DNA from: a virus
IMG/VR virus record: IMGVR_UViG_3300031673_000377
Coordinates: 1 to 27,700 of that record
Length of the DNA stretch: 27,700 nt
Reading direction: 5' to 3' (one strand)
The notes beneath the pieces were generated by a model. The model did not search any database, was not told where the DNA came from, and worked only from the letters and a program-made list of their open reading frames with translations. The translations under genes were made by a program, and so were the position numbers. Shown piece by piece: positions 22,668 through 27,700 of this stretch (the first letter of the stretch is position 1; every line of letters begins with the position of its first letter).

Positions 22668-22851
22668 CTATATCCTCCCTTTTTGTTATTGCAAATGAAT
22701 ATTCTTCATCTTCATTTTCATCTCTACCCATGTGGTAGCCTTCTTTTAGTTTTTGAAACACTTGGTCTAATGAAAGTTCAAAGCCCGAGTCGTTTATTTC
22801 AACATCTTCACAAGTTATTTCTATTTCTATTGTGTATTTTCTTCTACTCAT
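22660..22851 (-). CDS. Small acidic protein
   Basis: A 63-residue protein (MSRRKYTIEIEITCEDVEIN ...), acidic, with an N-terminal strand pair and GRDENEDEEYSFAITK at the end. Its start overlaps the ArdC-like gene stop as ATGA, and its own stop overlaps the next start. Small acidic proteins beside antirestriction genes can act as DNA mimics, but that is speculation here. Confidence 0.45.
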   Translation of the reverse strand: MSRRKYTIEIEITCEDVEINDSGFELSLDQVFQKLKEGYHMGRDENEDEEYSFAITKREDIDD

Positions 22852-23732
22852 GCTGCTTCATTTAAGATTCCTAAATATTCAATAGCTTTAAATGCATCTT
22901 TCATTGCATCATAAACTAACATTTTATCATTCTTTAATGCTCCAAGCCAATTTTGAATATATGCTGCATTGTTATCAATAACATCATTTTCAATACCTGC
23001 TTTACTACATAAAAATGCTGAGGTAAGCTCTGCTACTAATTCTTCTTTAGCATACTTTTGACTTCCTTTTTCAACTCTATCTACAATACCAGGCCTTGCA
23101 AGTCTATCTTGATGTCCTGTTGAATGAGCCATTTCGTGAAACAAAGTAGCGTAATACCCTTGTTCTGAATGAAATCTAATCTTTTTAGGCATAGATATTA
23201 TATCAGCTGATGGCATATAGTATGCTCTACCATCGTGATGATTTTCAATAGTAGGAACTTTATCCATAAATGATTTAACTAATTCTTCACAAGATTCAAT
23301 ATTATTAAAAGCAGAAGGTCTGTTAAGACTATCTATTTTTTCTTGAAAAGGATTTTCTATTCCCTCACATTGTTCTAAATTAAAAACTGTAGAACGCTTT
23401 ACTAAAGGAATTACATAAGACTTTCCATCATCATCTATTTTATCTAAAAATTGAAAATAAACAATACTGGTACCATTTTCTCCCTTCTTTACTTTTCCAC
23501 CTAATTGTTGAGCTTGTTTAAATGTAACCCAAAGAGGTGTTTCTCTATCTTCAAATAATGTATTAAAGAAATTAGCTCCTTTATATACTTTTTTTGAAAT
23601 CATATTTTTAGGATAACCGAATTGAACTGACTTCCATGGTTTTTTCCAAGGTATTTCTCCTTGTTCTAATTTGCTGATAATTTTATCAGTAAGCATTTGG
23701 TAAACATCTATTTTATTCTTTGTCTTTTTCAA
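22848..23732 (-). CDS. ArdC-like antirestriction protein (ssDNA-binding plus zincin)
   Basis: A 294-residue protein. The N-terminal part (YQMLTDKIISKLEQGEIPWK, then PKNMISKKVYKGAN and LWVTFKQAQQLGGKVKKGE) is the ArdC N-terminal ssDNA-binding domain. The C-terminal part has LFHEMAHSTGH with HExxH at 199-203 and EELVAELTSAFL with the expected Glu ligand near 230, a zincin domain. ArdC proteins are carried by plasmids and phages and are reported to protect incoming DNA from restriction. The start is TTG at 23732, inside the preceding 45-aa gene. An internal ATG at codon 13 would cut the conserved domain. Confidence 0.75.
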   Translation of the reverse strand: MKKTKNKIDVYQMLTDKIISKLEQGEIPWKKPWKSVQFGYPKNMISKKVYKGANFFNTLFEDRETPLWVTFKQAQQLGGKVKKGENGTSIVYFQFLDKIDDDGKSYVIPLVKRSTVFNLEQCEGIENPFQEKIDSLNRPSAFNNIESCEELVKSFMDKVPTIENHHDGRAYYMPSADIISMPKKIRFHSEQGYYATLFHEMAHSTGHQDRLARPGIVDRVEKGSQKYAKEELVAELTSAFLCSKAGIENDVIDNNAAYIQNWLGALKNDKMLVYDAMKDAFKAIEYLGILNEAA

Positions 23733-24116: not shown

Positions 24117-24875
24117 TTAAATTTTCATAGGCCTTGTTGTGCAAGTTTCTGTATTTATATAACCACCATGATGAGTGATTACAAAATCTTTAAGAAGCCT
24201 CCAAATTAAACTCATGCCTGATGTTACAAGTATTGAGTTAATAAATAAGTCTTGTTTTTGGAGAGCTTCGTATGTGCTACAACTTGGGCTGTTAAGTTCT
24301 TCATTTTCTTCCATATTTGGAAATAAATCAATAACATTTTTTAATTTAGATATTGTTTCGTGTTTACCATTTGGCTGCTCTATTTCTGTAGAACCTAATA
24401 TGAATTGACCAAAATCTTTACCATTACCAAAATCTAACCAATAATAAGGTATTTGATATGGTTGAGTTCTTTTTGCTGAAATAAATGCATCTTGAACTTC
24501 TTTTCTTGTTTTAACATTGTCAACACACGTAATAACAATGTTTACATTGATTAGTCCTACTCTCCTTTTAAATTTCTCTGGTATTGATACCCAATTAGTT
24601 CCATAAAATCTATTTAATCGAGTAATTAATGCTGATGCTTTATAAGTGCCTAAATCAGCTTCAGAGAACTTTTGTCTTCCGATATTTGGTTGCTCTACAA
24701 TATCATCATCTACTGCTTGAACAAACAGTCCGGGATGCCCTAAAGCTAATAGACTACTATTTATTTTTGCTAAGTCTGTTAAGACTTGTGTTCCATTACC
24801 ACCTACACCTATTACCATAACGGTAATAGGGTGTAGTGGTTCCATAAAATATGCTGGTGCATAATGTATATTCAT
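24117..24875 (-). CDS. PRTRC system ThiF-family (E1-like) protein
   Basis: A 252-residue protein. The nucleotide-binding motif VIGVGGNGTQ (Gly23, 25, 26, 28), VDDDIVEQPNIGRQKF (Asp56-58, then Asn-x-x-Arg-Gln) and ITCVDN fit the E1/ThiF/MoeB adenylating fold. SPSCSTYEALQKQDLFINS holds Cys199, placed where PRTRC-type ThiF proteins have a conserved Cys. E1-like enzymes activate the C-terminus of a ubiquitin-like protein by adenylation. The wording of the motifs matches the PRTRC ThiF branch known from plasmids and mobile elements. Its start overlaps the E2-like gene stop as ATGA. The substrate is not known. Confidence 0.8.
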   Translation of the reverse strand: MNIHYAPAYFMEPLHPITVMVIGVGGNGTQVLTDLAKINSSLLALGHPGLFVQAVDDDIVEQPNIGRQKFSEADLGTYKASALITRLNRFYGTNWVSIPEKFKRRVGLINVNIVITCVDNVKTRKEVQDAFISAKRTQPYQIPYYWLDFGNGKDFGQFILGSTEIEQPNGKHETISKLKNVIDLFPNMEENEELNSPSCSTYEALQKQDLFINSILVTSGMSLIWRLLKDFVITHHGGYINTETCTTRPMKI

Positions 24876-25558
24876 AATAAATCCTCTAATTTTTTACCAA
24901 ATGGTTTTAAAACATTATTATCAAATATTTTATTGTTATTAATTTGGTCTTTAATAAATGTGTTTAAATTTCCTTTTACTGGGCTTCCTTGTGCTTGTAA
25001 ATGACTAAACTTAGATTGGAAAAAAGCTTTTTCCCAATTTTTCATCATTTCACTAACTTCATTTGAACTGAATATTTTAGCGTTACCCATACAAACATTT
25101 CCATTGCTATAAATATTGTGCATAGGTGCATGATATAGCTTACTATTTAGTTTAGGCTTTTTTGTTTTTATTGCGTAAACAGATAGTTCATCCCTTTGAA
25201 GTTTAAAGATTAATGTAGGTAGATGCATTAGCCCATCATTAATGTTTAATTTTTTAATAAAAGATAGATTATGCCAACCCGATTTAATATACCATATAAT
25301 AGTTGGTACTGCATCATCATTATTGTATGCTAATAAGTTTTCTGGAAGAAATCCGTCACAATAAATTCTTTCTAATTTTATAGGATCTATCTTATCTAAT
25401 ATTTCAGCAATAGCTTTTTTTGTTAAAGGAGTTCCTTCTAACATTTCAAAACCAGATACACCCTTTTTTATTCTTCTTGATTCTAAATAATAATTACTGT
25501 TTTTTTGCTCGTAAGCTATAAGTGCTACTTTAGGTATTAAATTATCTTGTAATTCCAT
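24872..25558 (-). CDS. PRTRC system protein B (prokaryotic E2-like, family D)
   Basis: A 228-residue protein. Its best block is LYHAPMHNIYSNGNVCMGNA (residues 141-160: His143, His147, Asn148, Cys156), followed by WEKAFFQSKFSHL and PVKGNL, which together are the core of PRTRC protein B. This family is classed with prokaryotic E2-like proteins, where the Cys would carry the activated modifier. The adjacent E1-like gene, joined by ATGA, fits a two-step conjugation-type pathway. The role in phage or plasmid biology is not settled. Confidence 0.75.
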   Translation of the reverse strand: MELQDNLIPKVALIAYEQKNSNYYLESRRIKKGVSGFEMLEGTPLTKKAIAEILDKIDPIKLERIYCDGFLPENLLAYNNDDAVPTIIWYIKSGWHNLSFIKKLNINDGLMHLPTLIFKLQRDELSVYAIKTKKPKLNSKLYHAPMHNIYSNGNVCMGNAKIFSSNEVSEMMKNWEKAFFQSKFSHLQAQGSPVKGNLNTFIKDQINNNKIFDNNVLKPFGKKLEDLL

Positions 25559-27048: not shown

Positions 27049-27084
27049 GAAAAAAAGTTCTTTTTCGCCCATTGAAACGGGCGA
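27049..27084 (-). terminator. Double hairpin before the PRTRC-type operon
   Basis: Hairpin 1: TCGCCC (27065-27070) with GGGCGA (27079-27084), an 8-base loop. Hairpin 2: GAAAAA (27049-27054) with TTTTTC (27061-27066), sharing bases with the first. On the - strand the second is followed by TCTTTGTTAAAAAAAATAG and the ATG at 27025. The CTCTTTGTT flank equals that of the hairpins at 21924 and 23870. It could end the cassette transcripts entering from the right. Confidence 0.55.
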
Positions 27085-27172
27085 TAACATGTTTATATAA
27101 AACATAAAAGATACTTTTTTTTCTTTGTTTGTTGTTTTTTTTGTTTACGTTTCATATAAACGTGTTATATGC
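27081..27172 (-). repeat. Long palindrome, attC-like site B
   Basis: Arms 27081-27103 and 27149-27172 are inverted repeats differing at two bases plus one inserted base; the 45-nt loop is T-rich on the + strand. On the - strand it starts two bases after the stop of the 104-aa gene with GCATATAACAC and ends GTTATCGC. This is the order RYYYAAC-type box, long stem, GTTRRRY-type box seen in integron attC sites, though the boxes fit that consensus only partly. Confidence 0.5.
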
Positions 27173-27174
27173 AA

Positions 27175-27489
27175 TTAGCCTTTGTGCTTTGGTATTCCAA
27201 GTGCTACATTTACAAATTCTACATCTTTATACCATTCAGCAATAATCTTATCAACTCGCTTTAGTATTTCAATATCGTATTCAAGTTCTTTACTCCAAAC
27301 TTCTAATAGTATGTCTATCTCATAGTTTATCGCTCCTAATTCATCTCTTTGTATTGGTTCTTCTTCATAATCTCTATCAAGTTGCTCAATAGTTTCTTGC
27401 ACTATATCAATAGTTTTTTGTGAGGTTTTACCCATATTTGTAAATACATCACTATCAATTTTTCTAAGTTCTTCTAAATGTTTATTCAT
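27175..27489 (-). CDS. Unknown acidic helical protein in a cassette-like unit
   Basis: A 104-residue protein from the ATG at 27489; the open frame runs to a GTG at 27528 inside the palindromic box and is less likely there. It begins MNKHLEELRKIDSDVFTNMG, is acidic and all-helical, and ends VEFVNVALGIPKHKG. No family is recognised. It is flanked by complementary 11-bp boxes (GTGTTATATGC upstream, GCATATAACAC downstream on the - strand) and directly followed by a long palindrome. This is exactly how an integron cassette gene sits before its attC. Confidence 0.55.
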   Translation of the reverse strand: MNKHLEELRKIDSDVFTNMGKTSQKTIDIVQETIEQLDRDYEEEPIQRDELGAINYEIDILLEVWSKELEYDIEILKRVDKIIAEWYKDVEFVNVALGIPKHKG

Positions 27490-27517
27490 CTTATTGTTTT
27501 TAGTTATTAATATAAAA

Positions 27518-27587
27518 GCATATAACACTACCTATATGCAAAACTTCGTTGCACTACGTTCAGCACATAGCCAAACCGTTAGCAACT
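27518..27587 (-). repeat. Imperfect palindrome, attC-like site A
   Basis: On the - strand it begins at the stop of the right-edge gene with AGTTGCTAAC (27587-27578). The inner stem CTATGTGC pairs with GCATATAG (one G-T), over a 23-nt loop, and it ends with GTGTTATATGC (27528-27518). The 70-nt length and box-spacer-stem-loop-stem-spacer-box order are as in attC sites. The rest of the 96-nt gap up to the ATG at 27489 is AT-rich leader. Confidence 0.5.
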
Positions 27588-27700
27588 ATTTTTTTCTTTC
27601 TAATGCTTTATCAATGTCGTCAAACATTTTTTTTGCTTCTGGAGTTAAAGTATCTCTACTTATACAAGAACAGTTGCTAACATTAAATAAATTCCATATT
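27586..27700 (-). CDS. C-terminal end of an unknown gene, cut by the right edge
   Basis: The frame is open from 27700 to a TAG at 27588-27586 on the - strand. The visible end reads IWNLFNVSNCSCISRDTL then TPEAKKMFDDIDKALERKK. The SNCSC segment could belong to a lipoprotein or small secreted protein if a signal peptide lies to the right; this cannot be seen. The stop is inside the attC-like box, as for a cassette gene. The start and size are unknown. Confidence 0.5.
   Translation of the reverse strand, partial: IWNLFNVSNCSCISRDTLTPEAKKMFDDIDKALERKK

Follow-up and report, generated by a model that had tools for sequence, protein, structure and literature searches.

Gene cassettes with an upstream hairpin at the right end of a viral contig, probably moved between phages by site-specific recombination

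The window, by which we mean the whole 27.7 kb virus record analyzed here, ends in 620 bases that on the - strand read as an alternation of short boxes, palindromes and single genes. The question raised by this locus is whether these are integron-like gene cassettes, and if so, which unit moves and by what means. The boxes and palindromes were found at the places and in the order given by the sequence-only reading that first described them, on the - strand throughout. First on this strand comes the 3' end of a cassette gene whose ORF runs off the contig end (27586-27699), closing with ..LFNVSNCSCISRDTLTPEAKKMFDDIDKALERKK and the stop codon TAG at 27588-27586. The opening box GTTAGCAAC (27681-27673) has no gene after it; it lies within this ORF and is read in frame as Val-Ser-Asn, and in-frame GTT boxes are common in relatives with a start codon in the upstream hairpin. 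The closing box GTTGCTAAC of the contig-end gene (27578-27586) is the reverse complement of GTTAGCAAC. Palindrome A, a 51-nt attC-like hairpin body recognized by our scanner and from relatives (27527-27577), forms the first part of the next cassette. It is followed by the opening box GTTATATGC (27518-27526), seen also in the palindrome-A relatives, by an A+T-rich leader which comparison found to be partly common to other palindrome-A cassettes (27490-27517), and by a 104-aa gene (27175-27489) for which searches gave no confident family match. Pairing of the boxes identified the closing box GCATATAAC, the reverse complement of that opening box, at 27164-27172, with the putative cassette boundary at TAA|C. 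Palindrome B, the hairpin body at the array border (27089-27163), the box GTTATCGC bordering on the phage genes (27081-27088) and a small hairpin CGCCCGTTTCAATGGGCG after it (27083-27066) complete the layout. The 11-bp match reported between GTGTTATATGC and GCATATAACAC is indeed complementary, but it is really a 9-nt box plus two spacer bases.

In the window alone the box matching is near chance, and it is the relatives that establish the feature. Eight GTT-anchored 9-mer inverted pairs occur in the whole window, two of them in the last 620 bases, compared with 4-9 pairs for other anchors, so that they are not commoner. The hairpin scanner found two bodies in the whole window, both in the right-end array. 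Searching with the 20-mer TTGCTAACGGTTTGGCTATG and with a degenerate pattern of the hairpin retrieved related loci, 21 of them viral and 6 in bacterial genome assemblies, the latter mostly Bacteroidota MAGs. Several viral contigs carry long arrays, one of 71 kb (G026) having about 35 hairpin bodies. Over 688 kb of related contigs the layout scanner counted 130 bodies, as against 7 in the reversed sequence. This density is not a survey figure because the contigs were picked for carrying such hairpins. Body lengths cluster at 38-56, 75-84, 102-119 and at least 177 nt. An attC-like form, with outer boxes, an unpaired spacer of about 5-7 nt, inner paired arms and a loop, is present. The complementarity of an opening box to its own closing box, a mark of integron cassettes, was found for 87 of the 130 closing boxes, which have their reverse complement at most 1.5 kb upstream (9.9 expected for random AAC 8-mers). 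The sequence GTTRRRY, expected of an integron R' box, fits 8 of 123 boxes, below the background of 12.4%. It had also been suggested that the 104-aa gene be sought in other arrays; no relatives of its protein were found in viral contigs. A blastn search of the window end against plasmids gave matches at chance level only.

A phage about 97% identical to the window across the phage part (L009/L043) keeps palindrome B and its flank. The neighbor of palindrome B there is a 44-aa gene flanked by GTTAGCAAC and GTTGCTAAC, and upstream of this gene lie two more cassettes, one with a 19-bp inverted pair. The point at which the two sequences part is TAAC, on the side of palindrome B that faces the gene; palindrome B therefore appears to belong to the phage border, with exchangeable cassettes adjoining it. 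The arrays of a second pair that was compared (L016/L022) do not differ. We consider it probable that a gene-cassette array has its border at the right end of the window and that its cassettes are moved by site-specific recombination.

The exact position of the junctions was determined in 16 isolated phages, namely Polaribacter phages P12002L and P12002S and 14 Flavobacterium phages (Muminvirus, Lillamyvirus and Hattifnattvirus), by extracting distinct, clean indels of at least 120 bp without assuming any motif. Twenty such indels were obtained, drawn from related genomes and not all independent, and TAAC of the closing box was in the junction of 19 of them, whereas it occupies 1.7% of random 6-nt windows. 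The end boxes of 17 of these 19 units are complementary over at least 9 nt (9-10 nt), against control means of 3-6. In this region mumin6-1 and mumin6-3 are one 506-bp cassette apart. All 14 Flavobacterium phages share a fixed border, TATAAC|TACAATATTACATG (also written TATAAC|TACAATATT), at which six insertions end. A 68-bp element, AACGGATAAAACAAGTTTTACC.., ends two arrays of P12002L and one of P12002S in identical copies (L042 29172-29239 and about 37265; L118 36608-36675), and is possibly an attI-like site.

These junctions bear on a rival explanation, in which the phages' own machinery for homologous recombination or single-strand annealing exchanges cassettes at short conserved motifs, the boxes being no more than points of similarity. 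Sak4-like and RecE-like genes are present in the window phage, and a Sak4-like annealing protein and an exonuclease were matched in the scanned set that includes the window proteins. The homologies at the indel junctions are short (5-12 nt), and the one odd junction of the 20, that of a 1093-bp indel in P12002S, falls in TGTAT about 10 nt inside a hairpin and resembles a product such as homologous recombination would give. However, the same TAAC recurs in 19 of 20 junctions despite the many other short shared words, and annealing leaves the complementary boxes flanking each gene unexplained. We therefore regard this explanation as unlikely.

The moving unit is an upstream hairpin together with the gene that follows it, opposite to the gene and following hairpin of an integron. 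P12002L and P12002S are nearly identical, and P12002S has one extra unit consisting of a hairpin, an opening box, a methyltransferase gene and a closing box, with both junctions at TAAC|G. If a gene with its attC had been inserted at G|TT, the old hairpin would have stayed behind the upstream gene and the new hairpin would precede the downstream gene. Since P12002S shows the reverse arrangement of hairpins, such an insertion is contradicted. The polarity first proposed, a gene with the attC that follows it, thus has to be turned round, as both the relatives and the indels indicate that the upstream hairpin is the one that moves. The palindrome A module, for example, precedes many unrelated genes, with identity that sets in at TAAC and takes in the opening box and some 30 nt of leader. 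Among 161 pairs of similar bodies at different places, 83 agree exactly in the opening box and 6 in the upstream closing box; with the palindrome-A family set aside, the corresponding numbers were 6 and 0 of 71 pairs.

Ordinary integron cassettes, that is, a gene followed by attC, cut at G|TT by IntI and taken from host integrons, would account for the attC-like layout of boxes and hairpins. Integrons and attC clusters (CALINs) have been described in phage genomes including P12002L (Qi et al. 2023, PMC9892861). In the same work IntI1 was shown to recombine one P12002L site with attI1, and the directions of the P12002L sites were called divergent. The reversed polarity of the P12002S/L and Flavobacterium indels nevertheless contradicts this explanation, the GTTRRRY form is rare among the boxes, and neither the phages nor 249 genomes from a single flavobacterial family yielded an IntI. 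It is accordingly quite improbable.

The long hairpins contribute to the proteins themselves, as they encode the start codon and N-terminal codons of the cassette gene. Where bodies of at least 102 nt have an ORF, the start codon lies inside the body in 27 of 38 cases, and for 20 of these 27, translation reads the box's GTT as Val. One 183-nt body coding for a conserved N-terminal peptide (G026:5876, L007:4237 and L027:448) continues, from the junction at GTTAGC, into a different and unrelated C-terminal sequence in each of the three contigs. Inheritance of a unit is not always complete, since some hairpins, among them this 183-nt body, are shared while both neighboring genes differ.

Extrahelical bases are the usual strand mark of attC sites. 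In 118 distinct bodies they were in excess on the left arm in 40 cases and on the right arm in 19, and were absent or equal in 59, so that half of the hairpins have no net extrahelical base and it is the G-T wobbles that mark the strand instead. G was on the left arm of the gene-sense strand in 214 of 290 wobble pairs (vs 76), and these wobbles frequently occupy two positions separated by about 5 bp. With A-C mismatches at the wobble positions in the opposite strand, it is the sense strand that folds better. It would therefore act as the bottom strand of an integron, with the genes inverted relative to classical cassettes; on structural grounds, the gene-sense strand would then correspond to the classical attC bottom strand. 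That the hairpins are RNA elements, either 5' leaders or terminators, with the cassette look a by-product of gene turnover, is very improbable, for although the wobbles favor folding of the sense strand as in RNA and the bodies precede or contain start codons, this leaves the complementary boxes and the closing-box junctions unexplained, and an Rfam search gave no credible match.

As to the enzyme, no integrase had been noticed in the window, and a search for tyrosine recombinases (PF00589) agreed, finding none in 37 phage and viral records, several of them fragments. A shared phage recombinase was considered and rejected, as no gene is common to ten array phages. The TIGR02249 model at E<=1e-45 was run on 249 genomes belonging to the same family as G002, a MAG that carries an array and is titled Aequorivita, and found no integron integrase; there were zero matches at all in these genomes, though the same model gave matches in 395-genome samples. 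These "phylum" samples contained many intact integron integrases in GC-rich genomes and were kept out of the host evidence. The regions around 20 IntI genes contained four similar-hairpin matches, which look like attI regions of another kind. With no tyrosine recombinase, IntI or common gene found, a host enzyme is the simplest idea. Most likely, the host would provide a tyrosine recombinase in trans, either XerCD or an unrecognized relative of IntI, and this enzyme would move the cassettes by working on a folded strand.

XerCD comes into question since it is widespread and since folded phage DNA is its substrate in the CTXphi system; naming it as the moving enzyme is a guess, with a modest chance of being right. 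XerCD-using phages of the CTXphi type integrate folded single-stranded DNA at dif (see also PMC3089051). A TATAATTTATATTATGTAAA-type site, present once per genome in 43 of 60 genomes from the family of G002 and never in the reversed control, is probably the chromosomal dif of flavobacteria. This putative dif resembles the boxes in the TATAA/TTATG core only, and a search for a dif-like site in the window gave one weak match, at chance level.

A bolder reading, which we hold to be less likely than not, is that these cassettes form a system of their own without descent from host integrons. In it, lytic phages of Bacteroidota would swap hairpin-plus-gene units, some of them N-terminal coding modules with interchangeable C-termini, by means of a host recombinase such as XerCD acting on folded single-stranded phage DNA. 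In our preferred explanation, the probable one given above, a cassette consists of the hairpin, the opening box GTTANNNNN, a leader, one small gene or else the rest of a gene whose start codon sits in the hairpin, and the closing box NNNNNTAAC, the reverse complement of the cassette's own opening box. Gain, loss and reordering would come from site-specific recombination within the closing box, at TAA|C (or G|TTA when the opposite strand is read). Were a cassette excised as a circle, its closing box, hairpin and opening box would come together into one complete attC-like stem, and recombination would take place on the folded single strand, with the gene-sense strand as the presumed bottom-strand equivalent.

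Most of the 87 cassette proteins are without any match. The recognized cargo is often a DNA methyltransferase (C5, N6 and MT-A70 types occur) and includes also a Mom protein and an RtcB, and the likely use of the system is phage-to-phage exchange of anti-restriction and other small genes. In the study from which the Flavobacterium phages come, which says nothing of cassettes or integrons, reduced plating on strain LMO6 was tied to the absence of one methyltransferase (PMC7077304). As methyltransferase genes vary among the Flavobacterium phages within the cassette-indel region, cassette content may set host range. Among the other genes of the window, those at 24117-25558 (-) are adjacent and match Prok-E2_D (prokaryotic E2 family D, 1.8e-32) and ThiF (2e-11), which makes them a phage-borne E1/E2 pair of the ubiquitin-like type, and that at 22848-23732 (-) matches the ArdC anti-restriction N-terminal domain and a zincin-like metallopeptidase. 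The 71-kb viral contig (G026, L060-L063) has matches to the anti-CBASS protein Acb1, PrkA, SpoVR and APS kinase.

Base-exact exchange of cassettes thus takes place between virulent phages of the same waters, the polarity of the unit is liable to be misread by searches built on a gene followed by attC, and the moving enzyme in integrase-free genomes becomes testable with cultured phage-host pairs. What had been called integron-like cassettes in a phage can be kept as far as the units' own inverted boxes, the hairpins between them and whole-cassette gain and loss are concerned, but membership among true integrons is not borne out by the boxes or by the search for an integrase. Compared with classical integrons (IntI, attI and attC), the system shares single-gene units, an end box complementary to the opening box and one fixed border that takes several insertions; it differs in its inverted genes, in having no IntI found and a candidate attI only, and in long bodies that start translation inside the hairpin. 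It is a variant of the published phage attC clusters. Like those of Qi et al., it comprises small-gene arrays, hairpins with R- and L-type arms and methyltransferase cargo in virulent phages without an integrase, P12002L being in both data sets. Unlike them, it has the upstream hairpin plus gene as its unit, hairpins that may hold the start codon, boxes of the GTTANNNNN type in place of GTTRRRY, and base-exact gain and loss between near-identical phages. In the literature searched, with preprints absent and subscription papers scarce, four points appear to be new: the inverted unit, the evidence from the junctions, the hairpins that code for protein and the larger set of phages. The proposed likeness to XerCD use of the CTXphi type is that a host tyrosine recombinase working on a folded phage strand would need no enzyme from the phage.
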